Shown piece after piece: positions 11,751 to 29,328 of a DNA stretch of 54,654 nt (positions are counted from its first letter, which is position 1; every line of letters begins with the position of its first letter). The notes beneath the pieces were generated by a model, which saw only the letters and a program-made list of their open reading frames with translations, did no database searches and was not told the origin of the DNA. The stretch lies in assembly GCA_029940695.1 (NCBI GenBank), contig JAPYUP010000009.1, forward strand, positions 1 through 54,654, given 5' to 3'. The position numbers were made by a program, and so were the translations under genes. Source of the stretch: Candidatus Thalassarchaeaceae archaeon. GTDB taxonomy: Archaea > Thermoplasmatota > Poseidoniia > Poseidoniales > Thalassarchaeaceae.

Positions 11751-13814
11751 TTATTTTAGGGTCTCACCAATTTTCTCCTTGAGAACCTGATTTACTTTCT
11801 TTCCGTCTGCTGAGCCGCCTAACTTCTGCATCACGACTCCCATCAGTGGACCTATTGCGTTCAATCCTCGCTCGTTTACGAAGTCGGAACGCTCAGCTAG
11901 GACCTCGTCCACAGCCTTCTCGACCGCTCCTGTACCTGCTGGGGTGAAGCCACGGGCCTCGGCCTCACTAGACATCCAATCTAACAGAGCGTCGATGTCT
12001 GCGGTCTCGGCCTCCTCAATCAATGGCTCGACCCCCTCACGGGTCATCGTACCAGTCTCTCGAAGGTGGATAGCGGCGGCGAGGGCGCTCACCTTCTGCG
12101 TTCCGAACTCGAGCAGTGCGCTTGCCCACGCCTTTCCAGGGAGCTTGAGCTTCCCCTCCATGCCTTCGAAGAATAAGTCGTCCATCTCGCCGTTCAATAG
12201 TGCCTCGATCTGGTTCGGTGAGAGGTCGTGCCCCTGTAAACGACCCTCCCTCTCAGCTGTGGTCAAAGGCAGGTCGTTGCGAATGACATCCCATTGCTCC
12301 GACGTGATTTCAAGTACCGGGACGTCGGTTTCCGGGTACATTCGCGCTCTACCGGGAAGGGGCCTTAGAGCGGTCGTCGTCCCGTCCTCGGGCTGGCCCT
12401 TTCTGATGACTACATTCCTTACCTCCTTGGGAATCCTGTGGTATGCGAGCCTCGTCCTATTGACTACCGACTCGAGAGCAAGTTCCGCCTGCCAAGCCGG
12501 TGCCACGCACAAGGCGAAGGCATCGGACTCATCCAACGAGAGGTGGGAGCGAACCGAATCAACCTCTTCTTGCGAAATTCCGTAATCTGGGAGCTCATCG
12601 GATTGGAAGATACCAGCTACGCCCGCTAGCTTCGCTGCGCTAGCGAGCTCGCGGCCGAGTCTGGGAAGTTGGGGGGCATTTGCGTCGTCTGTCTTGATTC
12701 CAATCTTGCCGAGGAATCCCAGCAGGGCGACGCCGTGGACAGTGGCTCCTTCTTCCAGAGAGACACGGACCACTGTCGACTCGCAGGTACCGAAAAGTTC
12801 GGTCAGGTCATGGACCTCTAGGGGGATGCGGGAGGATGCTGCCAGCGCTACTCTGTTCTCGACGGGGGTGGCGTCGTCCGCCCTGTCAGATGGTAGCAGG
12901 GGCAGGTTGGCTTCCTTGCGCAACTCGTTGGCGAGGCGGTAGAAGTGGAGTTGTCGCGCCATTTCAAGCCTGATAATCCTTGGAATCCAATCGAGGTCCT
13001 GGCATCCCTTGATCTCGACTCGGTCACCGCAAGCTATGCTGACGTTGAGATCCTGCCTGATCGAGCCTAGGCCACGCCTGACCTGTCGGGTGTCCCTCAA
13101 GAGCCTGCCAAGTGCGATTGCTGTCTGCCTCGCGTGCTCTGGGGACTTGACATCGGGTGCGGTGGCAACCTCCACTAAGGGAATTCCCAACCTGTCAAGC
13201 GTATATATGACGGTCTCTCCATCATCCGATGCAAGGGTACCGAGCTTCCTCGCAGAGTCCTCCTCCAAGGAAATCAAATCAATGCCCACCTTGCCCGAGT
13301 CCGTATCTATTCTGCCCCCGGTCGCGATTAGTGTCGTCCTCTGGAATCCGCTAGTGTTCGAGCCGTCAACGACCGTCTTGCGCATCGTCTGGAGATTGGG
13401 GATTGGTTTGGCATCCATCATCGCAGTCATTGTCAGAGCCAAATCCACTGCATTGGCATCGTGTTTCATGGGTGGAGCCTCATCCAGCTCGATCAATCCA
13501 GCGTTCGGGGCCTGGACATACTCGAAGTCACGGTTTCTCCTTTGCTCGAAACGGGCTGCGACGTCTACTCTCCCGCCCTCCCCCTCTGAGGCTCTTAGCT
13601 TGCGACTAGTCCGATTCCACTCCTTCGGGATGCCGTCCAACTTGAAGTCGTACAATTCGCTTGGCATCCTCGAATGCAGCTTGTCGGTGGCGAGTTGTTG
13701 ATGAATCTCCAAGCCGCACATGAATCCCAACGCTACCGAATCTAGTGTGTCAGGCTTGCGTATGTCGCCGACGGGCTCCATGGTACCGTTCGCGGGGATG
13801 GGGGTGACGCTCAT
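11751..13814 (-). CDS. gatE: Glutamyl-tRNA(Gln) amidotransferase subunit E
   Basis: 687 residues from the ATG at 13814. GatE works with GatD to convert Glu-tRNA(Gln) to Gln-tRNA(Gln); GatDE is archaeal-specific. The N-terminal domain starts with LGFMCGLEIHQQLATDKLHS, followed by the GatB/E core (EYVQAPNAGLIELDE, RKTVVDGSNTSGFQRT, ISLEEDSARKL, IPLVEVATAPD, VRRGLGSIRQDLNVSI, EIKGCQDLDWIPRII). A GatE-specific AspRS-like insert follows (SRIPLEVHDLTELFGTCEST) and the C-terminus is the GatB/YqeY helical tail (GPLMGVVMQKLGG...VNQVLKEKI). The frame extends to 13865 inside mcm, but the ATG at 13814 leaves a 4-base gap and is preferred. gatD is not in this window. Confidence 0.93.
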   Translation of the reverse strand: MSVTPIPANGTMEPVGDIRKPDTLDSVALGFMCGLEIHQQLATDKLHSRMPSELYDFKLDGIPKEWNRTSRKLRASEGEGGRVDVAARFEQRRNRDFEYVQAPNAGLIELDEAPPMKHDANAVDLALTMTAMMDAKPIPNLQTMRKTVVDGSNTSGFQRTTLIATGGRIDTDSGKVGIDLISLEEDSARKLGTLASDDGETVIYTLDRLGIPLVEVATAPDVKSPEHARQTAIALGRLLRDTRQVRRGLGSIRQDLNVSIACGDRVEIKGCQDLDWIPRIIRLEMARQLHFYRLANELRKEANLPLLPSDRADDATPVENRVALAASSRIPLEVHDLTELFGTCESTVVRVSLEEGATVHGVALLGFLGKIGIKTDDANAPQLPRLGRELASAAKLAGVAGIFQSDELPDYGISQEEVDSVRSHLSLDESDAFALCVAPAWQAELALESVVNRTRLAYHRIPKEVRNVVIRKGQPEDGTTTALRPLPGRARMYPETDVPVLEITSEQWDVIRNDLPLTTAEREGRLQGHDLSPNQIEALLNGEMDDLFFEGMEGKLKLPGKAWASALLEFGTQKVSALAAAIHLRETGTMTREGVEPLIEEAETADIDALLDWMSSEAEARGFTPAGTGAVEKAVDEVLAERSDFVNERGLNAIGPLMGVVMQKLGGSADGKKVNQVLKEKIGETLK

Positions 13815-13818
13815 AGGG

Positions 13819-15981
13819 TCAGCGGACAAAGGAGAAGCGGCCTTCTCGGGGACTATACAACTCACCGCTGGTCAGCATCTTTGAGATGACCTCGTCGACC
13901 ATGCGCTCTGGTATGTTCATCGGCAGGGCCAGATTGTAAATGTCAATAATTTCTGCATGTCCCTTTTCCGAACAAACTTCTCTGAGCATGCCTCTAACTG
14001 AACCGCTAACACGCCTGCTCTTTGCCGAGACTCCGGAGTGCAACTCGGACTCGTCCTCAATCCCCGTTTCCTCCCTCCAGTGTTTGTAAATAGCGATGGC
14101 TAGGTCGGCATCTTCCTCCGTTGCAATGTCCCTAAGGTGTAATCTGGCATGGGCCTCTGTGAGTCTAATCAGGGACTCCAGTGCACGGGCCGTGATTGTA
14201 ATGACAGCTTCTTCATTATTATTCATAGAATCAAGATCATCCTTGTCGAAGGCCAGTCGTGCATCCCTGTAGAAATCCCGAATTTTTTTCTGGGCCTTCT
14301 CGTCTATGTCTGGGTGAACGTGTCTCTTGGCGAACGCTATGTACTTCCTAAGGAAGTTGATTGTGAGGTACTCCTTGTTGTCCACCCCAGTGGCGAAAAC
14401 CAAATCCTCCTGCTCCGAGGAGGGATCCAGTTGCATTCCTTCCTCAATCTTCGTCTCGGCCACTGCTAGAGTTCGAGTGTCTAGGATGTGTCTAGCGATT
14501 CTCTCATCGTCCTCGACTCTGACCTCGTCCCTGAGCAACCAAATGATATCAAATCTTGAGGCCAGTGGCACGGGCAAGCCAGTCTCTTTGAAGTTGTACA
14601 TCACGCTTCTTGTACGGTTGGCATGACGCGTAAAGCGGCCCTTAGTTGGGTTCGCAGCAGCTAGAATAGAGCACCGAGCCGGGAGAGTCGCAGTGATTCC
14701 ACCTTTAGCAATATAAATCTCCTGCTGCTCCATTGCGGGGTGCATCGTCCGGCGATCATCCTCTGAAATCTTGTCAAACTCGTCGATGGCCGCTAGCCCC
14801 CTGTCCGACAATGGCAATATTCCGGCTTCGAGTGCGAACCTCCCGTCACTGAAGGCGTCCTTTACTGCTGCGGCGGTCAAACCGGCCCCGGATACCCCGC
14901 CGCCGGAGGCGAGTTTACCGCGTGGGGATATCTTGGACATGTACTGCAGAAGCTGTGACTTTGCCACTCCGGGGTCACCCATCAGGAGGATGTGAATGTC
15001 ACCCCTCATTCGAGTTCTGTCGGGATTGATTCTAGCAACGCCTCCGAAGAGTTGCAGGGCAAGTGAGCGTTTTACGAAGGGCATGCGTCCTGTTGGGAAC
15101 ACTGCGGGTGCAATGGAGTCCTTCATTAGGGTGAATAAGTCATCCCTTTGTGACACGGACCTGATCATTTCCTTGTCCTCATCGCTGATTGAAATCTCGT
15201 TAAATGGGATGCTCTCGTGCTCTGAACTCACCATATGATAGATGATGTCGAATAGAGGGGTTTTCTTGCCCCTCTTGACCTCAGAGTGTATGACTGGAAT
15301 CACGTTAGCGGTAATTCTCTGTCCTGGGAGGTGCTTGTTTACTTGGTCTCCTTCTATCAACACCATCCCCCTTCCCGGTTGGCCCCCGCTAGGGATGTTC
15401 TCTGGCAACTCTTGGATTTCCATCCACTGGTTGTTGACCAACCCAGAGGTATCGAGCACGAGTTCGAATCTGGTTTCACGCCTAGAGCTGCCGCATCCTC
15501 CTGATGCCTGGGGACAAGAGAGGGGTTCCTTGAGTTCCCTCTCGTTCTTCTGAATTACTTCGATGAGTTCACCGCAGGCCTCGCACCTGAATGTCGCCCT
15601 GTGAATACGTGGCTTGATATCTGAGACCTTGGTAACGATTACCTCAACACTACAGAGAGTGTTGACTTGCACTCTTCCTATGTCACGGAGAGCAATACGG
15701 CTATCCCTTGGCAACTCGCTGACTCGGAGAACGGTCTCCAAGTCTTCCCCCCTTTCTCTGCAAATCTGCTTCAGTGCGTGAGAGCCTCTTTCAAGTATGG
15801 AAGACGGCTCCCTGAGCAAATCCTCAGCAAAATCTGGATCGAAGCTCTGTAGCTCGTGGAAGGGGACTTCGAGGAAAGGATAGGGGCTCTGCTTGGATAA
15901 GAGCATGATTACCTCTGATTCCTTGGCCTCCTCCAAGAAGGTCCTCCATCTCGCGGAGGCATCATGTGTTGCCATTGTCAA
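13819..15981 (-). CDS. mcm: Replicative MCM helicase
   Basis: 720 residues, the normal length for the archaeal homohexameric 3'-5' replicative helicase. The N-terminal domain carries a zinc site (CEAC near residue 131, then CPQASGGCG near 166) and an OB-fold. The AAA+ core follows: MCM box with Walker A GDPGVAKSQ (about 333-341), Walker B AIDEFDK (about 396-402), sensor 1 in AAANPTKGR and the arginine finger in LASRFDIIW. The C-terminus ends in a winged-helix (EIIDIYNLALPMNIPERMVDEVISKM). It precedes gatE on the same strand. No intein interrupts it. Confidence 0.96.
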   Translation of the reverse strand: MTMATHDASARWRTFLEEAKESEVIMLLSKQSPYPFLEVPFHELQSFDPDFAEDLLREPSSILERGSHALKQICRERGEDLETVLRVSELPRDSRIALRDIGRVQVNTLCSVEVIVTKVSDIKPRIHRATFRCEACGELIEVIQKNERELKEPLSCPQASGGCGSSRRETRFELVLDTSGLVNNQWMEIQELPENIPSGGQPGRGMVLIEGDQVNKHLPGQRITANVIPVIHSEVKRGKKTPLFDIIYHMVSSEHESIPFNEISISDEDKEMIRSVSQRDDLFTLMKDSIAPAVFPTGRMPFVKRSLALQLFGGVARINPDRTRMRGDIHILLMGDPGVAKSQLLQYMSKISPRGKLASGGGVSGAGLTAAAVKDAFSDGRFALEAGILPLSDRGLAAIDEFDKISEDDRRTMHPAMEQQEIYIAKGGITATLPARCSILAAANPTKGRFTRHANRTRSVMYNFKETGLPVPLASRFDIIWLLRDEVRVEDDERIARHILDTRTLAVAETKIEEGMQLDPSSEQEDLVFATGVDNKEYLTINFLRKYIAFAKRHVHPDIDEKAQKKIRDFYRDARLAFDKDDLDSMNNNEEAVITITARALESLIRLTEAHARLHLRDIATEEDADLAIAIYKHWREETGIEDESELHSGVSAKSRRVSGSVRGMLREVCSEKGHAEIIDIYNLALPMNIPERMVDEVISKMLTSGELYSPREGRFSFVR

Positions 15982-17246: not shown

Positions 17247-17963
17247 CTAGTGCGTTGATCCGAGGAAGTACTCCCCAATCTCAGGGTCGGTCAGGATATG
17301 CTGGGCATCGCCAGTGTGGACCATCTTGCCGTTGGCTAGGATGTACCCGCGGTCCGAGCGCGCGAGCGAGAGGCGAGCATTCTGCTCGACGATAAGTATG
17401 GTAATCCCGTCCTCGCGCAGAGAGTCGATACGTTCGATAATCTGCTGCTGGTAAAGCGGCGAGAGCGCGGCGGTGGGCTCATCGAGGAGCAGGAACTTGG
17501 GGTCGGAGATTAGGGCGCGGGAGATTGCGAGCATCTGCCTCTCGCCGCCCGATAGAGAGGCGGCGAGGTCGTGCTCGCGTGAGCGCAGGTCCGGAAACAT
17601 CTCGAGCGAGCGCTCGATACGCTCGTTGAGGATGTTGTTGGGGAGCGTGTTGCCGCCCATCTGCAGGTTCTCCTCGACGGAGAGAGACGGGAACACGTTG
17701 TCAATCTGGGGGACGTATGCAATCCCGTGGTTGACTAGCTGGTCGGTGCGCCATCCGGAAACATCCTGGCCCATGTACTCGATATCGCCGCCGTAGTAAG
17801 TGGCGATGCCGAAGATTGTCTTGATCAGAGTCGACTTGCCACAGCCGTTGGGCCCGATGATGGTGACGAACTCGCCCTCGTCGACGTGCATGTCTATCTC
17901 GTACAGGATCTGTACTGATCCGTAGCCGCCCTCGAGGCCTCTCACTTCGAGGACCCGTGTCAT
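17247..17963 (-). CDS. livF: Branched-chain amino acid ABC transporter ATP-binding protein LivF
   Basis: 238 residues, the usual LivF length. Walker A GPNGCGKSTL, Q-loop in YVPQIDNVFP, signature LSGGERQMLAISRAL, Walker B FLLLDEPTAAL and the switch His region IVEQNARLSL are all present. The replacement of His by Gln/Asn context in IVEQNA is normal for LivF. Its ATG overlaps the livG stop by 4 bases, so translation is coupled. With LivG it powers the fused permease encoded upstream. Confidence 0.93.
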   Translation of the reverse strand: MTRVLEVRGLEGGYGSVQILYEIDMHVDEGEFVTIIGPNGCGKSTLIKTIFGIATYYGGDIEYMGQDVSGWRTDQLVNHGIAYVPQIDNVFPSLSVEENLQMGGNTLPNNILNERIERSLEMFPDLRSREHDLAASLSGGERQMLAISRALISDPKFLLLDEPTAALSPLYQQQIIERIDSLREDGITILIVEQNARLSLARSDRGYILANGKMVHTGDAQHILTDPEIGEYFLGSTH

Positions 17964-18748
17964 TCCTCCTCACCCCCGCTGTCCCCGGCTGCACCGAGGT
18001 ACGCCTCTATCACGGCTCTGTTGCCGCGGACCTCGTCGGGGGTGCCCTGCATCAGGACCTCGCCCTCTTTCATCACGATGATGCGATCGACCCCCTGCCT
18101 CAGGATGAAGTCCATGTTGTGCTCGATGATGAGCACGGATATCCCGGTTTCGTCGACCGTCTTCCTGAGGTTGTTGAAGATCTTCAGTGCTAGCGGTCCC
18201 GCTACCCCTGCCACTGGCTCATCGAGCAGCAGGAGCGCGGGGTCTCCCATCATCGAGCGACCTATGTCCACCAGCTTGCTCTGGCCGCCCGAGAGCTCGC
18301 TGGTCAGGTTTTCCGCCATGTGGGGCACCTCGAGCTGGTCGAGCACGGCGTAGGCATTGCTCAGGCGCTCCTGCTCGGCGGGACGGCTGTTCGGCTGTAG
18401 GAAGGCTAGGAAGGGGTTGGGGGAGAACTGGCGCCTCGGTGGCACTAGCAGGTTCTCTATCACCGTCATCTGCCTCCATAGCCGGGTGTGCTGGAAGGTG
18501 CGTGTAACTCCCAGTTGCTGAATCTGGTCGGGTCGCATCTCGGAGGCGTCCATTCCGAAGACCTCGACCGATCCGGCCGTCTGGTCAAGGAGGCCGCTGA
18601 TGCAGTTGAAGGTGGTCGACTTACCACAGCCGTTGGGACCGATCAAACCAACGAACTCCCCCACTCCGACGTCGAACGAGACGTCGTTGACGGCCACCAG
18701 CCCGCCGAACTCCATACGGAGGCCCTCGACCTTGAGCACGGACTTCAT
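17960..18748 (-). CDS. livG: Branched-chain amino acid ABC transporter ATP-binding protein LivG
   Basis: 262 residues. Walker A GPNGCGKSTTFNCISG, TFQHTRLWRQMTVIENLLV after the Q-loop, signature ELSGGQSKLVDIGRSM, Walker B LLLLDEPVAGV and the IEHNMDFI switch His are typical of LivG. The Ser-Lys in the signature (LSGGQSK) replaces the common QQ/QR. It overlaps livF and the permease gene by 4 bases on each side, showing a tightly coupled operon. Confidence 0.93.
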   Translation of the reverse strand: MKSVLKVEGLRMEFGGLVAVNDVSFDVGVGEFVGLIGPNGCGKSTTFNCISGLLDQTAGSVEVFGMDASEMRPDQIQQLGVTRTFQHTRLWRQMTVIENLLVPPRRQFSPNPFLAFLQPNSRPAEQERLSNAYAVLDQLEVPHMAENLTSELSGGQSKLVDIGRSMMGDPALLLLDEPVAGVAGPLALKIFNNLRKTVDETGISVLIIEHNMDFILRQGVDRIIVMKEGEVLMQGTPDEVRGNRAVIEAYLGAAGDSGGEEE

Positions 18749-21700
18749 TCGGAATTACCTCCCAAGTGATCTGGACGGGGTGGCCTGCTCGGAACCTCTG
18801 GCAGCAGACCCTTGGGGTTGTACTTGAGCGAGAATAGGATCAGACAACCGATCAGAAAGACCTTGATGTAGGCCATGTCGGCCTGCAGATTGCCACCAGC
18901 GAAGGACTCCTCGATCGACCTCTCCCCCATCATCGCTCCGGTGAAGGCGAAAACAATCACTCCAGACACTCCGATCTCCGAGAGGGGTTTCCATCCGACC
19001 GCAATGCCAAGCAGCGCGATGAGAGCGAAGTATGCCGCTAGATCCCAAGGTTGGGTTACCAGCCAATTGAAGAGCTCGTCGATTGCGGCTGAGGTTTCAT
19101 GTAGGGGAAGGTCGGATGACCCTTGACCGGCTACGAGGACGTTGAAGACGAACTCCATCAGCACGATGATGAACGCGCCGATAACCATCCCCTTGTTATT
19201 GGCCGCACCACCGACTACGAAGGCGGCCCACACTAGGAAAGTCGTTTTGGCTGGTGACATAAAGCTCGGCTGGAAGCCCGTCAGTTTCCAAGCCCAAAGT
19301 GCCCCAGCCATACCAGCAATCGCAGCGCCGAGGGCGAGGCTCGCAGCCTTGTGGGTGAGCACGTCGTGACCGTGGTGCTGTGCTACATCCTCATCCTCCC
19401 TGATGGCCTTCAGGATCCTTCCCCAAGGCGACTTCAGCACCGTTTCGAGCAGCCACCAAACGAGCAACAGGACGATTATACCAATCAATGCTAGAGCCAT
19501 CATGTATGGGGCTGGCTCCCCGAGGTTCAGAAGATCGCCGATGCGCTCGGCGATGCTTCCAATCCCCGCAACGTCACTGCACTCATCTGGGCTCAGTGCG
19601 ACGCCCGAGTCGCTCAGGGGAGGTTCGCTTCCGCAGAACCACCAACTCTGCATGGGCAGGGCATACCTAGAGATGCCGATTGAGGAGCCCCAAGAGCCCG
19701 CCCTGAGTAATGGCTCCCCCATCAGCAGGATCCTTAAGATCTCTCCAAGGGATATCGTAACTATGGCGAAGTAGTCCATCCTGAGCCTTGCCGTCGGGTA
19801 AGCGAGCATCCAACCGAAGCCGGCGGCGAGGAGCACGGCCATCACAGTGGCCCATAGGACCGGCCAGTCGTAGCCATGAAGGTCCTTGGGCGCAGTCAGG
19901 ATGCCGACCGTGATGGCGCCAATGCCAGCGAAGAATATCACACCGAAGTTGACCATCCCCGTGATTCCAGTATGGAGATTGAGTGAGAACGACATCAGTG
20001 CGAAGACGGATAGCGTAACCAAGACATTGGATACCTGTAGCACCTTGATGAAGCGGGCACCCTCTTGGTCAGCCACGGGAAGCCACCAGACGAACAGGAG
20101 TAGGAAGGCCAGTAGCAATGCAAAGAGAGCCCAAGAGCCGCGCGGGCTCTCCCTACCGTACGGGGCCCATTCGCGGAATCTCTCGAACGAGCCGCTCTGG
20201 CTCTCCTTCATCGATGACTTGGCGCTTTCTATGGAAGCGGCTAGTTTGCTCTGAAATCCGCTGAGAGCAGCATTGGCCACCTTAGATGAGTCGATTATGG
20301 CCACCGATGCGCTGTTTCTCATTCTCATCACCATCGACGAGAAAGAGTCCATTGCCTCGATGGCGGGTCGCAGTGGGTCGTCCTCGCGTCCCTGGAGGAT
20401 GTAGGCGCCCTCCGCAATGGCAATCAGCCAGACCAGAATGGGCACAGCAGGCCAAATCAGGTCGCCGAGGGAGATTACCGCGTTTAGGAAGTCGAGCTCT
20501 AGGCTCATTAGGTCAAACCAGGACCTAGTCATTCTCTCGAACGCATCCGCTGTCCAGTCCGAGTGGTAGAAGGGCGCCAGATCAGAGGGTGGGCTGGGCA
20601 GGTTGCCAATTGTCAACGGCGAGTCTTCGAGCAACAGGGTCCCGTCGGACCTGCCGGTGAGAACCTCTAGGTTGGATGACACTGACTCATTGGCTTTGCA
20701 AGCCTCGGAGCACGAGCCCTCGGCGAATGAGTTGCCGGAGATGAACCTGGTAATTCTGCTGAAGAAGAAAGACGCCACTGTGACGATGAGCATCGATTCT
20801 CCACGAGACGACTTCCTCTGCTGGAAGTTGTGTAGCCCGAGCGCACCCAAGGGAGAGAATGCGAGAACGGCGCCTATTTGCCTCGACGGTACTTCTTCTC
20901 TCTCAGCGCGAGTGCGCAGTCTCTCCACCTTCCATTTCTCGAAGGCGTCGCCTATGCCTTCAGGCATAATCATCAGAATCGCGACGAGGAAGATATACGG
21001 CATCACGCCATCCAACACGGTGTAGTTCGCTCGTCCCATGGGGTGCCCTATTCCAATCAGAATCGGGGAGGACAGTGCCCTGACGAAGCCGACTATCAGA
21101 GCCCCGACGATTACCCCCTCGATCGAGCCTATGGTACCAAGGACGATGATGGCAAATGAGGGGAGCAGGAGAGTGAAGGGGATCTCTGGAGTGAACCTGA
21201 GCGTCATAGCGAAGATCGCGCCGCCCATTCCGGAGATTCCGGCCGAGAGGAAGGCACTGGTCATCTGGATGCGTTCCACGTTTATTCCGCTGCTGGCGGC
21301 GAGGTCGGGGTTGTCGGCGACCGCCCTCATCCTGCGGCCAAGCCTAGTCTTCCTGAGCAGCACCATCAGCAGGAGGACCGAACTGAAAATCACCACGGGC
21401 ATGGCGCCCTTGTAGTAAGCGTAACCGGTGGTCCACTCGGTGGTGCAGTCGGTCATCTTGTTGTAGACCTCGAAGAGGGGTTTACTGCCCTCGTGGATAA
21501 TTTTCTCCCCGCCCTCGCACACTAAGCCAGTGTAGGTCTGCCCATCTTCGATGTCACGCACCCCTAGATTGAGTCTGATTTTCTGCGTTGGCAGGTCCCA
21601 CCTCAGGGTCGGGAGCCTCCAGTCGGCGTCAGGCTCGAACATGTTCCTACTGGCACCGAATCTGAGGTAGACGATGGCTCGGAGTATCAGAGCCACGCCC

Positions 21701-22401
21701 AGAGAAGCAATCATCATTATCTGGGGAGTTGCGCTTTTCTCTCGGAAGCCGCGGTAGACCAAGCGGTCGATTAGCACGCCCGCGATTCCTGTGAAGACGA
21801 AGGCTGCCAGAACCGTCCATACCAGCAGGGACCACACCAGCACGCCGTCACCGGGAGCATCGTACAGGGGGAAGAAGTGATCGCTCCAGACCATCACCAT
21901 GGATAGGTACATGCCAAGCATGAACAGCTCGCTCTGGGCGAAGTTGCCGTAACGCTGCACCTTGTATGTGAGCGTCAGACCCACCGCGATGGCGAGGTAC
22001 GTCGATGACCAGGTCAGGGTGCCCACTCCGATCGAGGCCGCATCGAGCGTTACCCTTGCATCGTCTTGCATGCCCTTGAACAGGAAGTCGAGGGTCATCC
22101 ATACGATGAAGAGCAGGAACAATGGGGACAAGGCAATCGCTGTCGATCTGGCATTGCTCACTGGGATGTCGTCGAACAGGATCTTGACCAGAAAGAACCC
22201 GCCCGATATCGACTCGACCGATTGTAGCAGCCAGACCATATCGTCGGGGATATTGCCGCCCACGAGGTGGTCGAGCATATTGAGCGAGCCGGACTGGTAC
22301 AGCAGGCCCACGCTCGCATCGAGGATGATGGCCAGGGCGATGACGGTCCTGCGCGCCAAACGAGAACGGGATTTCCACTGTGCTCGCAAGTTATCGAGCA
22401 T
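18745..22401 (-). CDS. Fused LivH-LivM branched-chain amino acid permease with TM2-like insert
   Basis: 1218 residues, against about 300 (LivH) and 300-420 (LivM) for the separate proteins. Residues 1-125 add three or four extra membrane helices. LivH follows (about 125-500): LTYKVQRYGNFAQSELFMLG, then GRRMRAVADNPDLAASSGIN and GTIGSIEGVIVGALIVGF. A segment near 505-555 (LAFSPLGALGLHNFQQRKSS) resembles a TM2 domain. A linker with one or two helices and a long amphipathic stretch spans 560-750. LivM takes about 757-1200: LNLHTGITGMVNFG, GWMLAYPTARLRMDYFAIVTISLGEI, KAIREDEDVAQHHGHDV and a conserved FVVGGAANNKG. Both half-permeases look intact, so one chain should form the whole membrane pore. 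It sits between the binding protein and livG. Confidence 0.9.
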   Translation of the reverse strand: MLDNLRAQWKSRSRLARRTVIALAIILDASVGLLYQSGSLNMLDHLVGGNIPDDMVWLLQSVESISGGFFLVKILFDDIPVSNARSTAIALSPLFLLFIVWMTLDFLFKGMQDDARVTLDAASIGVGTLTWSSTYLAIAVGLTLTYKVQRYGNFAQSELFMLGMYLSMVMVWSDHFFPLYDAPGDGVLVWSLLVWTVLAAFVFTGIAGVLIDRLVYRGFREKSATPQIMMIASLGVALILRAIVYLRFGASRNMFEPDADWRLPTLRWDLPTQKIRLNLGVRDIEDGQTYTGLVCEGGEKIIHEGSKPLFEVYNKMTDCTTEWTTGYAYYKGAMPVVIFSSVLLLMVLLRKTRLGRRMRAVADNPDLAASSGINVERIQMTSAFLSAGISGMGGAIFAMTLRFTPEIPFTLLLPSFAIIVLGTIGSIEGVIVGALIVGFVRALSSPILIGIGHPMGRANYTVLDGVMPYIFLVAILMIMPEGIGDAFEKWKVERLRTRAEREEVPSRQIGAVLAFSPLGALGLHNFQQRKSSRGESMLIVTVASFFFSRITRFISGNSFAEGSCSEACKANESVSSNLEVLTGRSDGTLLLEDSPLTIGNLPSPPSDLAPFYHSDWTADAFERMTRSWFDLMSLELDFLNAVISLGDLIWPAVPILVWLIAIAEGAYILQGREDDPLRPAIEAMDSFSSMVMRMRNSASVAIIDSSKVANAALSGFQSKLAASIESAKSSMKESQSGSFERFREWAPYGRESPRGSWALFALLLAFLLLFVWWLPVADQEGARFIKVLQVSNVLVTLSVFALMSFSLNLHTGITGMVNFGVIFFAGIGAITVGILTAPKDLHGYDWPVLWATVMAVLLAAGFGWMLAYPTARLRMDYFAIVTISLGEILRILLMGEPLLRAGSWGSSIGISRYALPMQSWWFCGSEPPLSDSGVALSPDECSDVAGIGSIAERIGDLLNLGEPAPYMMALALIGIIVLLLVWWLLETVLKSPWGRILKAIREDEDVAQHHGHDVLTHKAASLALGAAIAGMAGALWAWKLTGFQPSFMSPAKTTFLVWAAFVVGGAANNKGMVIGAFIIVLMEFVFNVLVAGQGSSDLPLHETSAAIDELFNWLVTQPWDLAAYFALIALLGIAVGWKPLSEIGVSGVIVFAFTGAMMGERSIEESFAGGNLQADMAYIKVFLIGCLILFSLKYNPKGLLPEVPSRPPRPDHLGGNSE

Positions 22402-22529: not shown

Positions 22530-25500
22530 TCAAACAGAGGTGATTCCGTTATAGAAATCCCAGTGCTGGGTGCAGTCATAGGAGGCCGTTCCGGCCGTGA
22601 CGGTGAAGTCACCAACGCAGTATCCCGAGCCACCGACGTCACCATCGGCGTTGAACGAGTGGACGCCGCTGGCGCCCACGAAGCCTTGTCCGACCACGGC
22701 GATCATCGAGGCCAGTGGGGTTCCCGGAGGGCTTCCGGCCTGAGCGAACACAGAGTAGGCGATGATGATGAGCGCATCGAAGGTCTCAGCGGTGTAGATG
22801 CCGTCAGCGCAATAGCTGTTCGCGCCGCAGAGCATGCCGAAGGCCACCGAACGCTCGCTGGGCGTCCCTGCTGCTGGCTTGGTGGCAACGATTCCAGCGC
22901 ATGTGGCGTTGGTTGCCATCGAGGTGCACAGTCCCTCCTCCGCTATTCCGTCGCCGCCGTAGATGGCGCCGGTGAAGCTCTGGGATGCCAGTTCCTCGAC
23001 GATTGCAGCGCCGTCAGCGGCGTAGGAGATCAACACGACGCTGTCGCAGCCTTCGCTGACGACCGCAGACACCTGAGAGGTGAAGTCGGTAGTTGTCTCC
23101 TCGTAACCAATCTTGGTGCACAGGTTGTCTGTGCCCCAAGCCGCCTCGAAGGCGTCGGCGAAGCCGGAGCCGTAGTCGTTGGTCATGTACAGCAGCGCCG
23201 GGTTGGAGCTTCCCCTGTTGGTCACAACATCAGACAGGGCGGGACCCTGGATTGCGTCACTTGGCACAACTCGGAAGAAATTCGGGTAGGCCGTCGAGTC
23301 GCTCAGACCGGGGTTTGTGCTCGCGTACGATATCATCGGAATCCCAGCGGCCGAGAGGACTGCGTTGGCGCCCATCGTCGCACCGGAGCAGGCTGCTCCT
23401 GCGACTGCTACCACGCCCGCGTCGACGAGAGTCTGCGCGGCTGTGGCGGCTACAGTACCATCGCAGCCGGAGTCGGCTGTGATCAGTTCGAACTGGAGGC
23501 CGCTGCCGTATCCAGCGACGTTAATCAACTGCATCGCGATTGCAGCGGCGGCAGTGAAGCCGGGCGCGTAGACCGCGATTGGTCCGGTCAGCGGGTTGAG
23601 TAACCCGATCTTGACAGTGGTCCCGGTGAACTCGCTGGCGGCAATTCCGCCCTCGAGGGTCCAGTAGGCCCGGCAGCTGAAGAACACGTCAGTCGACGAA
23701 AGCGCGTCAAAGCGGCAGATGTCGTAGCCCGCCCCGCCGACGTCTCCGTCGGCGGTGAAGGTGTGGGTCCCGCTAGCGCCCGCGTATGCGGTGCCGACCA
23801 TGTTGAGGTGGTCCGCCATGTCGTCGCCGGCCATGTTGTGCGCGGCACCGATCATCATCATCGCGTCGTAGGTCTCGCCGGTGTAAATGCCACCAGCGCA
23901 GGTCGTGTCAGCAGCACAGCGGTCGTTGAAGTCGCCAGCGCTGGATCCAGCACGGGGCTTCGTGGCCTGCACGCCGTTGGCGGCGCCGGGCGCGCTGAAG
24001 TCGTCTAGGAAGGCAGAATCGGCGATCCCGTCAGCGCCGAACACCGGCACTGAGACGCCAAGGACTGCCATCGTCTCGAGGATGGCCGCTCCGTCGGTGG
24101 AGTAGGTGACCATCACGACTGAGCCGCAGCTCGCATCGGCGATTGCCTGTACCTGGGCGGCGAAATCGGTCGTGGTGTCCTCGTAGCCAATCTTGGTGCA
24201 CAGGTTGGCTGTGCCCCAAGCGCCCTCGAAGGCGTCGGCGAGACCGGAGCCGTAGTCGTTGGTCATGTGCAGCAGGGCCGGGTTGGTGGCGCCTGCGGCG
24301 GTGACCATGTCGGCCATGGCCGGCCCTTGGATGGCGTCGCTGGGCACGACTCGCCAGAATCCTGGGTAGGCCGTGGAGTCGCTCAGACCGGGGTTGGTGC
24401 TCGCGTAGGAGACTTGCACGACGCCGGCGGCGTTCAGAACCGCGTTGGCGGCCATGGAGGCGCCGGAGCAGGCTGCTCCTGCGACACCGACCACGCCCGC
24501 GTCCACAAGGGACTGGGCGGCTGCGCCGGCGACGTCGCCGCTGCAGCCGGAGTCGGCCTCGATGAGCTCGAAGTTGCCGCCCGCCGCGTTCAGGTCGTCA
24601 ATCGCCATCTGCGCGGCCACCGTGAAGGCCGGTGCGTAGACGGCAATCGGGCCGGTCAGAGGGTTGAGCAGACCGATCTTGGTGGTTGCAGCAACGCACG
24701 ACCCGTCGTCGGAGTTGGCCGCGGAGTTGTAGTTGGCCGCGGTCGAATCGGTGCATCCCGCGACTACGGGAGGCGTGTACGTCGGGTTGGCGGTGCCCAT
24801 GTAGTGGGCAGCGATCTCGTCAACGATTGCATTCCCCAAATCGACGGAGAAACCTTCTGCATTCCCATCAGCATCCAAATTCTCAAATGGAGGGTATGAT
24901 GTGTCTGAACAGAATTTTAGGTTACCAGATTCCAGAACTGCAGTCAGCGTGCTACCTTCGGTTGGTGTGGGGTAAGCAGTCGCTGTATCAGCGGTAGTGT
25001 CGTCCACAATTGGTGCTGCTAGATCCCATGCACCAGCAATCAGATCGTGCTCACCGGAATCTATCACAGCGGAAATGGCTACGTTTAGTGCGTCAAGCAA
25101 CTCACCATTGTCGTCTTCTGCTACGGCTATTCCGTAGTTCTCATCGGAGAACACGGCAAGAATAGTTCCTGCTAGAGCCAGAACTGGAGCATCGCCCAAT
25201 GCGTAGTCCGCATCTCCGTTGTCGACAGCTGCGATTACGGACGGGAAGTCCGCGAAAGCGACAATCGTCGCAGCAGCGAGGTTGTCCGCCGCGTAAAGGT
25301 CCGAGGTGGTCCCGGACTGCAACGCAATCGTGGTGCCAGCCGCATTCAAGTCGGCCACACTGGTGATAGTTGCCGCGCTGGATCCGCCGATAACACCCTG
25401 GCTACTGGTGTAGTAGCCTCTGGTGAAGTCGACAACTTCCTCTCTCGCTGCCGTGATGGTCATGGTTGAGAGGATGGCCTCGCACATTGTTCCGTCGTTC

Positions 25501-25673
25501 AGGTTGGGGATAATGGGATCCCAATCAGAGGTCACATACACTGCGCTGACATCAGCTGCAGGTGTAAGTGCCCACTCTTCCTCGGGTTCATCGTCTCCGC
25601 CCAAGCAACCGGCGAACGCTGCCGCCAGCATGCTCAGGGTAAGCATCATTGCAATCATTTTATTTTTGAACAT
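22530..25673 (-). CDS. Lipoprotein with a circularly permuted SBP_bac_3 domain and two tandem LivJ domains
   Basis: 1047 residues from the ATG at 25673. The signal peptide ends in a lipobox (AAAFAGC near residue 22). Residues 40-215 match the second two thirds of an SBP_bac_3 polar-amino-acid receptor (VTSDWDPIIPNLNDG, MTITAAREEVVDFTRGYY, then the C-terminal lobe and closing helix). Residues 228-275 then match the first third (LKFCSDTSYPPFENLDADG, GFSVDLGNAI), so the order is circularly permuted. A Cys-rich linker GCTDSTAANYNSAANSDDGS follows (305-325), then two Peripla_BP_6/LivJ domains (about 331-687 and 688-1047), each starting KIGLLNPLTGPIAVYAP. It should capture substrates for the fused permease encoded next. 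The open frame to 26153 lies over purM and is rejected as start. Confidence 0.85.
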   Translation of the reverse strand: MFKNKMIAMMLTLSMLAAAFAGCLGGDDEPEEEWALTPAADVSAVYVTSDWDPIIPNLNDGTMCEAILSTMTITAAREEVVDFTRGYYTSSQGVIGGSSAATITSVADLNAAGTTIALQSGTTSDLYAADNLAAATIVAFADFPSVIAAVDNGDADYALGDAPVLALAGTILAVFSDENYGIAVAEDDNGELLDALNVAISAVIDSGEHDLIAGAWDLAAPIVDDTTADTATAYPTPTEGSTLTAVLESGNLKFCSDTSYPPFENLDADGNAEGFSVDLGNAIVDEIAAHYMGTANPTYTPPVVAGCTDSTAANYNSAANSDDGSCVAATTKIGLLNPLTGPIAVYAPAFTVAAQMAIDDLNAAGGNFELIEADSGCSGDVAGAAAQSLVDAGVVGVAGAACSGASMAANAVLNAAGVVQVSYASTNPGLSDSTAYPGFWRVVPSDAIQGPAMADMVTAAGATNPALLHMTNDYGSGLADAFEGAWGTANLCTKIGYEDTTTDFAAQVQAIADASCGSVVMVTYSTDGAAILETMAVLGVSVPVFGADGIADSAFLDDFSAPGAANGVQATKPRAGSSAGDFNDRCAADTTCAGGIYTGETYDAMMMIGAAHNMAGDDMADHLNMVGTAYAGASGTHTFTADGDVGGAGYDICRFDALSSTDVFFSCRAYWTLEGGIAASEFTGTTVKIGLLNPLTGPIAVYAPGFTAAAAIAMQLINVAGYGSGLQFELITADSGCDGTVAATAAQTLVDAGVVAVAGAACSGATMGANAVLSAAGIPMISYASTNPGLSDSTAYPNFFRVVPSDAIQGPALSDVVTNRGSSNPALLYMTNDYGSGFADAFEAAWGTDNLCTKIGYEETTTDFTSQVSAVVSEGCDSVVLISYAADGAAIVEELASQSFTGAIYGGDGIAEEGLCTSMATNATCAGIVATKPAAGTPSERSVAFGMLCGANSYCADGIYTAETFDALIIIAYSVFAQAGSPPGTPLASMIAVVGQGFVGASGVHSFNADGDVGGSGYCVGDFTVTAGTASYDCTQHWDFYNGITSV
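22540..24690 (-). repeat. Tandem duplication of the LivJ domain
   Basis: The two domains lie about 1080 bases apart; for instance 23101-23206 and 24181-24286 align without gaps and differ at only a handful of positions. Identity is highest around the ligand-cleft strand GLSDSTAYP, SDAIQGPA and TNDYGSG, and lower in the C-terminal halves, as expected after duplication with patchy gene conversion. Confidence 0.85.
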
Positions 25674-25712
25674 AGCGATCTCACTATCCGTGCCCCTGCG
25701 GACAACGAGCAC

Positions 25713-25773
25713 GTTATAGAGATTGTTGAATGTTTCCTTTATAAGCAACATACGAAATATCAACCATTTAAGG
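25713..25773. promoter_or_regulatory. Divergent promoter region between the Liv operon and purM
   Basis: This AT-rich spacer holds a TATA-like CTTATAAAG on the minus strand (25737-25745) and a second TCTATAACG (25712-25720), both suitably placed for the binding-protein start at 25673, and a plus-strand ATTTAAGG (25766-25773) about 45 bases before the purM ATG at 25814. Confidence 0.45.
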
Positions 25774-25813
25774 TGATTTTTCTTATTATTCCATAGATTG
25801 CTTCTCCGAGAGG

Positions 25814-26965
25814 ATGAAGTCTTTGATTTCACTCGCTCGGGTCGTGGCAGAGCCCATGGACTACGCTTCGAGCGGAGTCGATACCGAGCGGGAGGGTTTG
25901 GCCGTGGCCAGCCTGATTGAGGCAGTGGGAGCCTCTGGAAGGCTGTCAGGCCAACTTGGGGCCCCAGTTCCACTGCCTGGGGGTTTCGGGGGGGTCGTTG
26001 AGTTCGGTGACTCCTGCTTGGCATTGGCAACGGACGGAGTCGGCTCCAAACTCCAAATCGCAAACCAACTAGGTCGCCTAGAGGGCGTAGGCATCGATTG
26101 CGTGGCGATGAACGTGAACGATCTGATTTGCGTTGGGGCAGAACCACTGGCATTCGTGGACTACGTCGCCGTCCCCGAGACGGACCCCGCCGTGCACAAA
26201 GTGCTGGGCGCCTCGCTATCCGAGGGTTGCTCGAGGGCGCGCGTCACCCTTGCCGGAGGCGAGACCGCGACCCTCCCGGGAATCGTCAATGAGCTCGACC
26301 TTTCTGGCACCGCCCTAGGTTGGTTCTCCCGCGGGTGTGGGATTACGGGCGAGAGATTGGAGGCGGGTGACGTTCTCATCGGCCTGCCCAGCAGCGGCCT
26401 TCACTCCAACGGCTACACCCTAGTTCGAGCGGTCCTGGAGAGGTCGAATTGCTCGTTGGAAGATGTGGCTCCGTTCGATGTCGAACACCCATCTAGGGAG
26501 ATCGAGCGCTTTCCCAATAACAGTGGCAAGACGTCTCTTGGAGAAGTTATATTGAATCCGACCCGAATCTACGTCGACCCGGTGGTTGACCTGATAATGG
26601 AGTCTAGGGGGGAGGGCGGCGTTTGCCCGGAGGATAGCATCAAGGCCATCGCTCACATTACCGGAGGAGGACTCTCGAACCTGCTGAGGCTCCATGACTC
26701 CCTCGGTTGGCACATTGGCGAGCCACTGTCAGCGCAGCCAGAGTTCGAGTGGATAGCAGAGATCGGTTCTGTGAACAGCAAGGAGATGCACCGAACCTTC
26801 AACATGGGGATGGGGATGGTAGTGGCTGTCTCTGCAGCTGCCGCAGATCCGGTTGCATATTGGCTTGAGGAGCGGCTGTCCGGAAGTAGGGTCGTGGGTG
26901 AAGTGGTCGATCAAGGCAGGGTGGTGACTCACTCGGATTCCGGAGTGAGGTTCGTTCGCTACTGA
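25814..26965 (+). CDS. purM: Phosphoribosylformylglycinamidine cyclo-ligase (AIR synthetase)
   Basis: Forms AIR from FGAM and ATP in purine synthesis, cytoplasmic. The family start MDYASSGVDTEREG is at residues 15-28, so an ATG at 25856 may be the true start (369 residues); 25814 is the most upstream ATG. Other signatures: LATDGVGSKLQIA (the DGVGTK-type ATP loop), MNVNDLICVGAEPLAFVDYVA, LAGGETATLPGIV, SSGLHSNGYTLVR, ILNPTRIYVDPV, IAHITGGGLSNLLR and NMGMGMVVAV. All expected catalytic loops are present. Other pur genes are not adjacent. Confidence 0.93.
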   Translation: MKSLISLARVVAEPMDYASSGVDTEREGLAVASLIEAVGASGRLSGQLGAPVPLPGGFGGVVEFGDSCLALATDGVGSKLQIANQLGRLEGVGIDCVAMNVNDLICVGAEPLAFVDYVAVPETDPAVHKVLGASLSEGCSRARVTLAGGETATLPGIVNELDLSGTALGWFSRGCGITGERLEAGDVLIGLPSSGLHSNGYTLVRAVLERSNCSLEDVAPFDVEHPSREIERFPNNSGKTSLGEVILNPTRIYVDPVVDLIMESRGEGGVCPEDSIKAIAHITGGGLSNLLRLHDSLGWHIGEPLSAQPEFEWIAEIGSVNSKEMHRTFNMGMGMVVAVSAAAADPVAYWLEERLSGSRVVGEVVDQGRVVTHSDSGVRFVRY

Positions 26966-27013
26966 TTCCCCCCCCTTCATCAATGCCTTTTGAGGTGGGG
27001 CCCTCCGCAAACC

Positions 27014-28345
27014 ATGGCCGAGGGCGGTGCGGGCGGATGGCCCGGAGTGGTACACCGCGAGGGGCGTACCCTGATGCGGCTGCCAAATGCGCCGGAAATC
27101 ACAGGGCAGGGGCCGAGAGCCAAGGGCTCAGGTTCGGTCTTTCACAATCCGGCTATGGCGGGAAGCAGGACCCGTAGTGTACTCCTGCTGAGGCACGCAA
27201 TCGAGACGGGAATTCTTGGAGACGGTGCCATCTACGCCCTAGATGGACTCTCGGCGACTGGCATAAGAGCGCGCAGGTGGCTCAACGAGTTGCCTCCAGA
27301 CTTAGCCGAGAGGATGAGGATTACGATTGTCGACCTAGACCCGAGCGCCCTAGTATGGGCAAAAGGATCCCATGAGGAGTTTCCCCCCGCACATGGTTGC
27401 GGACAAATCAATCCGGTCGAGGGGGATCTCAGGAGCGTTGTGCTCGAGAGCGGCAGGCACTGGGTCGACATTGACCCCTACGGGTCACCCGTTCCCTTCA
27501 TCGACACCGCGATCCAATCTCTGGCCCGGAGCAGCGTCATCGAGGTCAGTGCGACCGACACAGCAGCCCTGACGGGGTCGTCTAGGCATCCGTTGTTGAG
27601 GCGTTACGGCGCGCGCGTCAGGACAGATCGGCTAGCACACGACTCGGGCCTGAGGGTCATGCTTGCGATGGTGGCCAAGGCAGCTGCGCGACACGACCGT
27701 GCAATCGAACCATTGCTCTCGGTATGGGACTCGCATCACCTCAGGGTCTCAACTCGGGTCATCAGGAGCGTGGAGGCGGCTAACAGGGTCGAGGGTGGCC
27801 TTGGATGGAGGATGCATTCACCCACGGCGGAGGAGGTCGAGGCGTCGATGGCCTCGGGGCTGCACCACGGGACCTCGCTCGAGCAGTTACCGATGAACTG
27901 CCTGCTCCCTCTCAATTACCCACTGAATCAAAGTGATTCGAGAGTCTCCGGTCCACTCTGGGTCGGTGCGATGGGCGAAGCCTCAGCAATGTCCTCAATG
28001 ACCGTCGAGCGTGCAATCGAGGCTTGTGGGCCTCCTGCCATCGGGAACGACCCCGTAGGCTGGACCGAGCGGGAATTTGATCTCGAACGCAGGCGGGTTG
28101 CGAGGAGCGTTCGAAACATCAGCGAGGAGGCAGGAGCGATAGATGCTCACCACCACATCGTCGTCGACGACCTAGCCACTTGGCTAGGTGTTGGTGCACC
28201 GCCCAGCCCCCGAAGAATGGTCGAGGCTCTGCAGAAATCGGGTCACAGGGCTGGGCTGACTCACTACGGACGGCCGTCATTCAGGACCGATTCCCCATGG
28301 GAGGACGTCGCAGAGGCAGCGAGGTCTCTTCAGCCGCCGATGTAA
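27014..28345 (+). CDS. trm1: tRNA (guanine(26)-N2)-dimethyltransferase Trm1
   Basis: 443 residues. SAM-dependent enzyme methylating G26 in tRNA, found in archaea and eukaryotes. Signatures: GSVFHNPAMAGSRTRSV at the N-terminus, ALDGLSATGIRARRWL (motif I), IVDLDPSALVWA, the catalytic HWVDIDPYGSPVPFID (motif IV), EVSATDTAALTGS and RYGARV. The C-terminal domain is also present with WVGAMGEAS. The usual cysteine pair of the C-terminal zinc ribbon is not visible; the region reads HHLRVSTRVIR directly into the next part, as in the shorter archaeal forms. Its 3' end overlaps the convergent moaA by 16 bases. I chose the ATG at 27014 because the earlier frame start is in a G/C-rich leader. Confidence 0.92.
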   Translation: MAEGGAGGWPGVVHREGRTLMRLPNAPEITGQGPRAKGSGSVFHNPAMAGSRTRSVLLLRHAIETGILGDGAIYALDGLSATGIRARRWLNELPPDLAERMRITIVDLDPSALVWAKGSHEEFPPAHGCGQINPVEGDLRSVVLESGRHWVDIDPYGSPVPFIDTAIQSLARSSVIEVSATDTAALTGSSRHPLLRRYGARVRTDRLAHDSGLRVMLAMVAKAAARHDRAIEPLLSVWDSHHLRVSTRVIRSVEAANRVEGGLGWRMHSPTAEEVEASMASGLHHGTSLEQLPMNCLLPLNYPLNQSDSRVSGPLWVGAMGEASAMSSMTVERAIEACGPPAIGNDPVGWTEREFDLERRRVARSVRNISEEAGAIDAHHHIVVDDLATWLGVGAPPSPRRMVEALQKSGHRAGLTHYGRPSFRTDSPWEDVAEAARSLQPPM

Positions 28346-29328
28346 GACATCTCAATCCGCGGCAGGGACGAGGTCTCCGATGAACGCATTTCGCTGTATC
28401 TATCCGTCCTTCGACTCCAGACCGCGGCAATCGCATCGGTCAGCTCATCTATTGCTCCTCCATCGTGAATTATTGCCCTGAGATCGTGCCCTCCTGAAGC
28501 GAACAAGCAAGTGAAGAGATGCCCGTCTGCGGAGAGGCGCGCACGCACGCAATCGCCGCAGAACGGCTCCGAGACGGATGAGATGAAGCCGATTTCTCCC
28601 GAGCCATCTGAGTGGGCCCACCTAGTCGCGACGTCGCTCGGTGACTCGCCCTCTATAGGAACAAAATCGAACTCCCTCTGAAGCTCCTTGAGCAGGTCCA
28701 TCGAGTGGACGACCTGCCCCGGGCTCCATCCGTTGGTCCTACCGACGTCCATGTACTCGATGAATCGGACGATGACCCCGGTCCCCTGAAAGTGTCCAAC
28801 TAGAGCGGGAACCTCGGATTCGTTGACGCCGCGTTGTACAACACAGTTGACCTTCACGGGACCGAGGTCGTTCTCGAGTGCGGCCTCGATGCCCTCTAGC
28901 ACGGTCTCGACCGGGATGGTACAATCGGCCATGCTCGCGTGAGTCTGCGGGTCGATGGCGTCTAGACTGACTGTCACCCTATCCAGGCCGGAATCTGCCA
29001 GCAGCGGTGCCTGATCCCTGAGAAGAGAGGCGTTGGTTGTAAGCGCCGTCTCGACGCCGAGAGTCGAGAGCCGTTGTACGAGAGCGGGAACGCCGGGTCT
29101 CAGAAGGGGCTCTCCGCCGGTGATTCTGACCTTGCTTAGGCCCAGTGGAAGGCACGCGCTAACGAACCTCTCAATCTCCTCGAACGATAGCAGGGCCCGT
29201 CGGGGAAGGAACGTGTGCTGCTCACCGAAGCGCTCCCTAGGCATGCAGTACCGGCATCTGAAGTTGCACCTATCGGTAACGGAGATTCTCAGATCTCTCA
29301 GGGGCCTGTCAAACCTGTCCCTCACCAC
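28330..29328 (-). CDS. moaA: GTP 3',8-cyclase MoaA
   Basis: 332 residues, GTG start. Radical-SAM enzyme for the first step of molybdenum cofactor synthesis. The N-terminal cluster motif is CNFRCRYC (CX3CX2C) after LRISVTDR; VRITGGEPLLRPG binds SAM; NASLL and DRVTVSLDA follow; the C-terminal cluster uses EPFCGDCVRARLSADGHLFTC (CX2CX13C). The protein ends in Gly-Gly (YIGG), the motif needed for turnover. Everything expected is present. No other moa gene is adjacent. Confidence 0.95.
   Translation of the reverse strand: MVRDRFDRPLRDLRISVTDRCNFRCRYCMPRERFGEQHTFLPRRALLSFEEIERFVSACLPLGLSKVRITGGEPLLRPGVPALVQRLSTLGVETALTTNASLLRDQAPLLADSGLDRVTVSLDAIDPQTHASMADCTIPVETVLEGIEAALENDLGPVKVNCVVQRGVNESEVPALVGHFQGTGVIVRFIEYMDVGRTNGWSPGQVVHSMDLLKELQREFDFVPIEGESPSDVATRWAHSDGSGEIGFISSVSEPFCGDCVRARLSADGHLFTCLFASGGHDLRAIIHDGGAIDELTDAIAAVWSRRTDRYSEMRSSETSSLPRIEMSYIGG

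Follow-up and report, generated by a model that had tools for sequence, protein, structure and literature searches.

Naturally permuted solute-binding proteins are known from receptor families other than the one treated here. In the parts of the papers available to us, natural circular permutation is reported for MglB-2 (Tp0684), a tethered ligand-binding lipoprotein of Treponema pallidum (PMC4990184), and for the permutation family of glycine-betaine- and molybdate-binding proteins, in which the ligand pocket was kept (PMC2395249). No published report of a natural SBP_bac_3 permutant was found in the open-licence PubMed Central (PMC) literature, seen mostly at title level, and permutation terms are absent from PMC2861598. 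Among marine archaea, livK of Thalassarchaeaceae was described as highly transcribed in the passages on that gene in PMC9723583. Here we describe a livK-type gene with a permuted SBP_bac_3 domain in a genome of Candidatus Thalassarchaeaceae archaeon (marine group IIb, MGIIb; GCA_029940695.1). The window, which is the whole stretch of DNA analysed (positions 1-54,654), is the entire contig JAPYUP010000009.1 (C39) of a metagenome-assembled genome (MAG) of 1.42 Mb in 44 contigs, 94.1% complete. L- and G-numbers are our labels for loci and genomes, f1 (taken to be Thalassarchaeaceae), f2 and f3 denote families and g6 and g10 genera.

The window protein (residues 1-1047, translated from 25673..22530 on the minus strand) is a putative lipoprotein, judging from a lipobox recognised by eye, and its Peripla_BP_6 domains and Liv operon place it among the LivK-type receptors. 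Its N-terminal part almost certainly holds a true circular permutation of an SBP_bac_3 receptor, because two segments cover one receptor once in swapped order, the whole is modelled as a single domain, contact residues and cysteines are conserved and the order is common to relatives. The parts of the gene are as follows.

22530..25673, minus strand: whole gene, with permuted SBP_bac_3 domain, GCTD-type repeat and two Peripla_BP_6 domains (translation, Pfam)
25605..25673, minus strand: signal peptide with lipobox ..LAAAFAGC, Cys23 (by eye from the sequence; relatives similar)
24993..25541, minus strand: first segment, canonical SBP_bac_3 residues 66-248, strand B to C-terminal helix (BLAST map; Pfam profile 37-129)
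25482..25484, minus strand: Cys64, domain position 31 in segment 1, possible disulphide partner (64/64 alignment rows)
24951..25025, minus strand: linker ..VDDTTADTATAYPTPTEGS from old C-terminus to old N-terminus, overlapping the end of the first BLAST segment (linker comparison)
24798..24950, minus strand: second segment, canonical residues as far as ~59, strand 1 plus helix A (BLAST map; Pfam profile 1-37)
24909..24911, minus strand: Cys255, domain position 222 in segment 2 (64/64 alignment rows)
24696..24758, minus strand: GCTDSTAANYNSAANSDDGSC repeat (by eye; similar repeats elsewhere in these genomes)
23634..24680, minus strand: first Peripla_BP_6/LivK domain, limits approximate (Pfam)
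22533..23618, minus strand: second Peripla_BP_6/LivK domain, limits approximate (Pfam)

The Pfam SBP_bac_3 profile (PF00497) scores 67.7 bits on the window protein against a curated cut-off of 26.4, with profile positions 37-129 at protein residues 41-216. In the minus-strand DNA these positions lie at 25026-25553 and are followed by profile positions 1-37 at 24810-24920, the two stretches being swapped with respect to the canonical N-to-C order. BLASTP against a canonical-order paralogue, which occurs in L034 and L119 inside large secreted-looking proteins unrelated to the Liv-fused genes, aligned domain residues 12-194 with paralogue residues 66-248 (51% identity, E 2e-56) and domain residues 201-258 with paralogue residues 2-59 (52% identity, E 5e-17). 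Both aligned parts are present once only, and the six canonical residues at the cut (60-65) remain unaligned. The relative L109 gave the same picture (3-191 on 58-246, 199-256 on 2-59). A profile of 64 sequences mapped on the canonical receptor PDB 5t0w with profile positions 205-253 on chain residues 12-60 and 8-183 on 62-246, with a single residue between the two chain ranges. When mapped on the GlnPQ tandem 6h30, this profile covered the C-terminal part of one domain and, weakly, the N-terminal part of the domain after it. A chance match is excluded as the source of the swapped order. The gene, its coordinates and the swapped SBP_bac_3 domain at the N-terminus of a Liv binding protein are as the initial annotation gave them, and so is the cover of one whole receptor, but the first segment amounts to roughly three quarters of the receptor and not its later two thirds.

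A wider scan of the genome collection yielded 169 stretches, 87 of which encoded a relative; we retained the 80 best, which fall in 76 loci. Alignment A2 joins the window to 63 of these loci, leaving out 12 without a match to the extraction pattern and L077, which runs past the end of its contig. Eight positions, which we take to correspond to the amino-acid contacts of LAO/HisJ, are invariant in its 64 rows, namely Ser36, Thr39, Arg44, Gly88, Thr89 and Asp128 in segment 1 and Asp224 and Tyr227 in segment 2. Arg, Ser/Thr and Asp, the residues that bind the backbone of the amino acid, are kept in all 64 Liv-fused rows. Cys31 and Cys222 (domain positions), one per segment, are equally invariant, and a Cys64-Cys255 disulphide is possible. 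AlphaFold2 on A2 gave a confident single-domain model with a predicted local distance difference test score (pLDDT) of 91.5 and a predicted TM-score of 0.86. The best PDB match of this model in Foldseek was 5t0w (176 columns, 2.3 A, TM-score 0.56 by query length); a partial match is expected since the program aligns in sequence order. We hold it to be highly probable that the permuted domain is a working amino-acid receptor.

Some match was present in 50 of the 60 family genomes (own included) and the whole permuted domain in 32, with contig-end fragments in two more, G057 and G044. Downstream of the domain, Peripla_BP_6 was found in 61 of the 63 loci with more than 1200 nt of downstream sequence, neither of the exceptions, L119 and L121, being a Liv-fused gene; LivHM was found in 53 of the 54 loci with more than 3500 nt, L119 excepted. 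None of the Liv-fused genes read had the normal order. The initial annotation had proposed a structure prediction and a search for the same order in related genomes, and both results speak for a permutation; close relatives with the normal order in the same gene, which it had named as contrary evidence, were absent among the Liv-fused genes read. In G026 (L035, 3819-7709) the lipoprotein signal ahead of the permuted and LivK domains is replaced, by reading, by a start like a zinc ribbon, then a membrane helix and acidic repeats. In the window, livHM, livG and livF lie downstream of the fused lipoprotein gene (ORF, open reading frame, list).

18745..22401, minus strand: fused LivH-LivM permease ORF, 1218 aa (ORF; assigned from sequence)
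17960..18748, minus strand: LivG ATPase (ORF, order in relatives; assigned from sequence and position)
17247..17963, minus strand: LivF ATPase (ORF, order in relatives; assigned from sequence and position)

LivH and LivM, separated by a long stretch, share the single 1218-aa ORF, and many relatives have frames of similar length.

SBP_bac_3 receptors normally pair with HisM/GlnP-type permeases. No such permease stands beside the window domain, which sits in the Liv operon, and no second SBP_bac_3 gene besides the fused one was found in the window genome (E 0.001). Relatives outside the Liv-fused group point to a partner. Stand-alone permuted receptors adjoin, by reading, a permease with a propeller and an ATPase in a second family of the same class, f3 (L194-L196), and in the Heimdall group (L121, L232-L234). 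Pfam scans identified PSII_BNR together with BPD_transp_1 in all five propeller permeases scanned (L207, L195, L121, L232 and L233), and BPD_transp_1 without a propeller in both permeases scanned beside canonical Heimdall receptors (L235 and L236). The propeller is YCF48/BNR-like and N-terminal in L207 (4429-6957, minus strand), L121 (2976-4742, minus strand), L195 (897-2735, minus strand), L232 and L233. One Heimdall-group genome has its propeller permease divided between two overlapping frames (L234, 6249-7984), and in five genomes of genus g6 (G027, G036, G046, G056 and G192) the permease matches cross an in-frame TGA at the C-terminal end.

The window genome encodes the propeller permease and its ATPase on another contig (C38, L207), where no receptor ORF adjoins the permease and its open frame lies 26 nt from the next one. 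Permease loci were read in 19 of the 34 MGIIb genomes with this permease, considering neighbouring ORFs of at least 160 aa. No receptor ORF of that size lay beside the permease in ten of them (L207-L216), L213 being cut by a contig end and L211 having ~0.8 kb unassigned; in the other nine a 335-aa relative of the receptor adjoins it. Nine full-length proteins of this kind were found in the 60 family genomes (L122-L129 and L172; E 1e-6). They are cut at the hinge, with first halves that match weakly in BLAST and in L123 not at all, and they are degenerate, the Arg and both segment-2 contacts being lost in 9/9. It is possible that they are non-binding subunits. They keep the cysteine pair despite the lost contact residues, and adjoin the propeller permease.

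The domain and the propeller permease tend to occur together. Among the 60 family genomes the domain was present in 34 (fragments counted), the permease in 34 and both in 33. An order sample of 193 genomes was reduced to 191 by setting aside G186 and G194, whose state was ambiguous; G044 was entered from its fragment, and other contig-end fragments were taken as present. Both were found in 54 of these genomes, the domain only in 3, the permease only in 5 and neither in 129. For the 76 LivHM-bearing genomes the corresponding numbers were 48, 2, 0 and 26. Fisher tests gave 8e-38 for the order sample and 2e-18 for the LivHM-bearing genomes, values that ignore phylogeny and so exaggerate the support. 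Contrasting genomes are the most telling, among them G144, a genome of the window's genus, in which LivK has a lipobox, the repeat and Peripla_BP_6 but no SBP_bac_3 domain, and no permease was detected (76% complete). LivK was also read without the domain in G021 and G031 (g10), G015 and, from family f2, G060.

We propose that the LivK lipoprotein carries in its N-terminal part a single, complete SBP_bac_3 amino-acid receptor with new ends between helix A and strand B, its old ends being joined by a short conserved linker. The permuted receptor family would have as its own transporter a HisM/GlnP-like amino-acid ATP-binding cassette (ABC) importer with a YCF48-type propeller on the permease. 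In the Heimdall group and in the other family of the same class, the receptor is a stand-alone protein, apparently anchored in the membrane, whose gene adjoins that importer. In Thalassarchaeaceae it would have been relocated, cut at another point, onto the lipid-anchored LivK chain, and its place at the importer is now vacant or taken by a degenerate relative. The fused protein would then capture two kinds of amino acid, the LivK domains feeding LivHMGF next door and the permuted domain feeding the propeller importer, encoded elsewhere, in trans. On balance we favour a relocated receptor and one lipoprotein serving two importers, and consider delivery of the permuted domain's ligand to the propeller importer somewhat more probable than its absence.

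Several observations weigh against this proposal. The domain occurs without the permease in G026 (86% complete), G164 (73%) and G181 (79%), and the permease without the domain in G016, G114, G133, G158 and G183. Most of the co-occurrence could stem from a single gain, and the genomes compared are incomplete MAGs, G144 being one example. The Foldseek alignment spans a limited part of the domain, and the model of the Heimdall permutant L121, built on a shallow alignment, was poor (pLDDT 60.1) and was not used. Lastly, the Liv-fused domain adjoins Liv genes, which is compatible with delivery to LivHM too. The domain could be a working receptor that delivers to the neighbouring LivHM and broadens its uptake, the link with the propeller permease being historical: it is part of one chain with two LivK domains, encoded upstream of livHM, and among the loci with enough sequence Peripla_BP_6 follows in 61/63 and LivHM in 53/54, and tandem receptors that feed one importer are known from GlnPQ, as the parts of PMC8025302 available to us describe. 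Against LivHM stands the usual pairing of the family with another type of permease. In addition, 26 of the 76 LivHM genomes lack the domain and none of these has the propeller permease, while 48 of the 50 with the domain have it, counts that again ignore phylogeny. We hold delivery to LivHM to be rather unlikely, though it is the strongest of the alternatives.

It is improbable that the domain has ceased to deliver and serves as a ligand-holding spacer or sensor on the LivK lipoprotein. It stands behind the lipid anchor and ahead of the LivK domains, a place taken in G144 (L217) by a GCTD-type repeat only, which would suit such a role; conservation of the contact positions and association of the domain with an importer argue against it.

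The cut point differs among the relatives. The stand-alone proteins of f3 (L194-L196, frames of 320-347 aa) start at the hinge, and L195 aligns with the canonical paralogue as 27-148 on 133-248 followed by 155-284 on 1-131 (BLAST). In the Heimdall-group L121 the cut lies before the last helices, with 86-298 on 6-211 and a weaker match of 16-72 on 192-248 (E 6e-5), its first residues being a signal peptide. A search of 58 genomes of L121's class gave 13 with a match, two of which (G448 and G442) were left out of the reading; three rows (L225, L226 and L234) are hinge-cut, their BLAST ranges sharing as many as 25 residues where the cut lies, and seven (L223, L224 and L227-L231) have the canonical order. 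Eight AapJ-like genes of ~400 aa, considered as permuted relatives, all proved canonical by reading and were rejected. The paralogue-bearing proteins of L034 (minus-strand ORF, 894 aa) and L119 (3591-7247) contain DGxxDCxDGSDE repeats.

The linkers relate these groups to each other. Scores of the Liv-fused linker against those of the class relatives and of L121, the only Heimdall row used, were reached by 0 to 2 of 2000 shuffles, and against the 335-aa proteins by 0 of 2000; the linkers of class relatives and 335-aa proteins were not distinct from shuffled ones (174 to 621 of 2000). A linker-like YPEPSEGS/FPTPTEGS stands at the N-terminus of the canonical paralogue. The two cysteines were co-present or co-absent in all 40 rows compared, in which L121 was again the sole Heimdall row: both are present in the Liv-fused (17/17), canonical-paralogue (2/2) and 335-aa (9/9) rows and both absent from the class relatives (3), L121 (1) and the outgroup (8). 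In the re-ordered alignment the contact positions are also kept in three class relatives, L121 and paralogue L034; paralogue L119 departs at two of them, with Gln for Gly88 and His for Asp128.

A tree with the nine 335-aa rows flagged them as long branches, and they were left out of a second tree of re-ordered domains. In the latter, permuted rows and canonical paralogue formed one clade (98/94) next to the canonical Heimdall rows, which were found with the permuted L121 as query and are a biased sample. Grouping the permuted rows without the paralogue was weakly rejected (p-AU 0.039, for a group named after the tree had been seen); a single clade of hinge-cut rows (p 0.575) and a single clade of Liv-fused rows (p 0.724) were not rejected. 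The position of the paralogue suggests that its canonical order could be secondary, a return from a permuted one, but the test is marginal. Three cut points imply more than one permutation event, and serial as well as parallel permutation would fit the tree tests. We tentatively suggest, at somewhat less than even confidence, that a receptor family of pelagic archaea went through several permutations, with cuts at the hinge and at two other points and perhaps, in the paralogue with the linker-like N-terminus, a return to the canonical order, and that in one lineage the receptor moved to the receptor of another importer, so that a single lipoprotein serves two ABC importers from separate families.

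The initial annotation had also considered the remains of two tandem SBP_bac_3 domains after a deletion. As an account of origin this does well: the order is what results when the end of one receptor is followed by the start of a second, as on 6h30, and permutation by duplication is a recognised route, as far as the available part of PMC3320104 goes. No tandem form turned up in the loci read; a tandem ancestor was sought by a junction query over 292 genomes of the phylum only, and a 1607-aa match, L203, was examined over its first 60 residues. That two incomplete receptors and no complete working domain make up the protein of today is very improbable. The parts occur once each with full cover save a few residues at the cut, contacts and cysteines of both parts are invariant over 64 sequences, the model is a confident single domain and the loci read hold no tandem form; two broken receptors are rejected for the present protein on this single cover, the conservation and the model.

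The composition change reported near 24830 is real, but it is preceded by a fall and does not coincide with the break in identity. G+C at third codon positions (GC3) is ~0.7 over codons 61-160, ~0.40 over codons 161-280 and ~0.80 from codon 281 on (24833 and below). L046, the nearest relative, is 82.5% identical over 24767-29000 and ~65% below 24740, with the break at 24740-24767, the end of the permuted domain. Contig 5 of the L046 genome (taken as L046's record) also matches farther along, at 74% over 11751-15981. Because relatives share the order and the genome of the nearest relative is collinear beyond the edge, we read it as homologous recombination: the LivK-LivHM part was probably replaced between lineages, with an edge near 24750 at a module boundary. 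An assembly misjoin near 24830 or a chimeric contig, in favour of which stand the sharp GC3 change, unusual among relatives (the Peripla_BP_6 part exceeds segment 1 in 14/51 only), and the drop in identity, has next to no probability and is ruled out as the cause of the domain order by the same order in 32 of the 60 family genomes and in 63 rows from 76 public loci, several with AG-/AH- names that we take for single-cell genomes, and by the 4.2-kb match to the L046 genome at the expected place.

If delivery in trans is true, an importer without an adjoining receptor gene may use a domain hidden in the receptor of another transporter, which would alter what is deduced about uptake from the operons of common ocean archaea. 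Here the canonical order and three cut points occur among receptors at ~30-60% segment identity, with related linkers and readable gene contexts; with related receptors in several orders, the route of permutation and its functional effect become directly testable.

The window domain shares family, contact positions and a circular match over the domain with the canonical SBP_bac_3 receptors (LAO/HisJ, GlnH and AncCDT-1, 5t0w), but its chain order is rotated and it is fused to two Peripla_BP_6 domains. From MglB-2 (Tp0684), going by the available part of PMC4990184, it differs in that the latter is a Type I sugar receptor of another fold family, with another cut and no fusion to another receptor; the window domain matches SBP_bac_3 and amino-acid receptors, not the 'Type Ic' fold of TpMglB-2. 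The glycine-betaine and molybdate receptors belong to other families that, in the part of PMC2395249 available, are less than 24% identical mutually, whereas permuted and canonical forms here are ~30-60% identical by segment. The livK of PMC9723583 lies beside its transporter in MGIIb and is possibly the same locus or a relative, and its passages on livK make no mention of a permuted or fused SBP_bac_3 domain. GlnPQ SBD1-SBD2 (6h30; PMC8025302, seen in part) likewise carries several receptors per chain, and its tandem shows a possible route to the swapped order; unlike the fused protein proposed here, both of its domains are canonical and both feed one importer.

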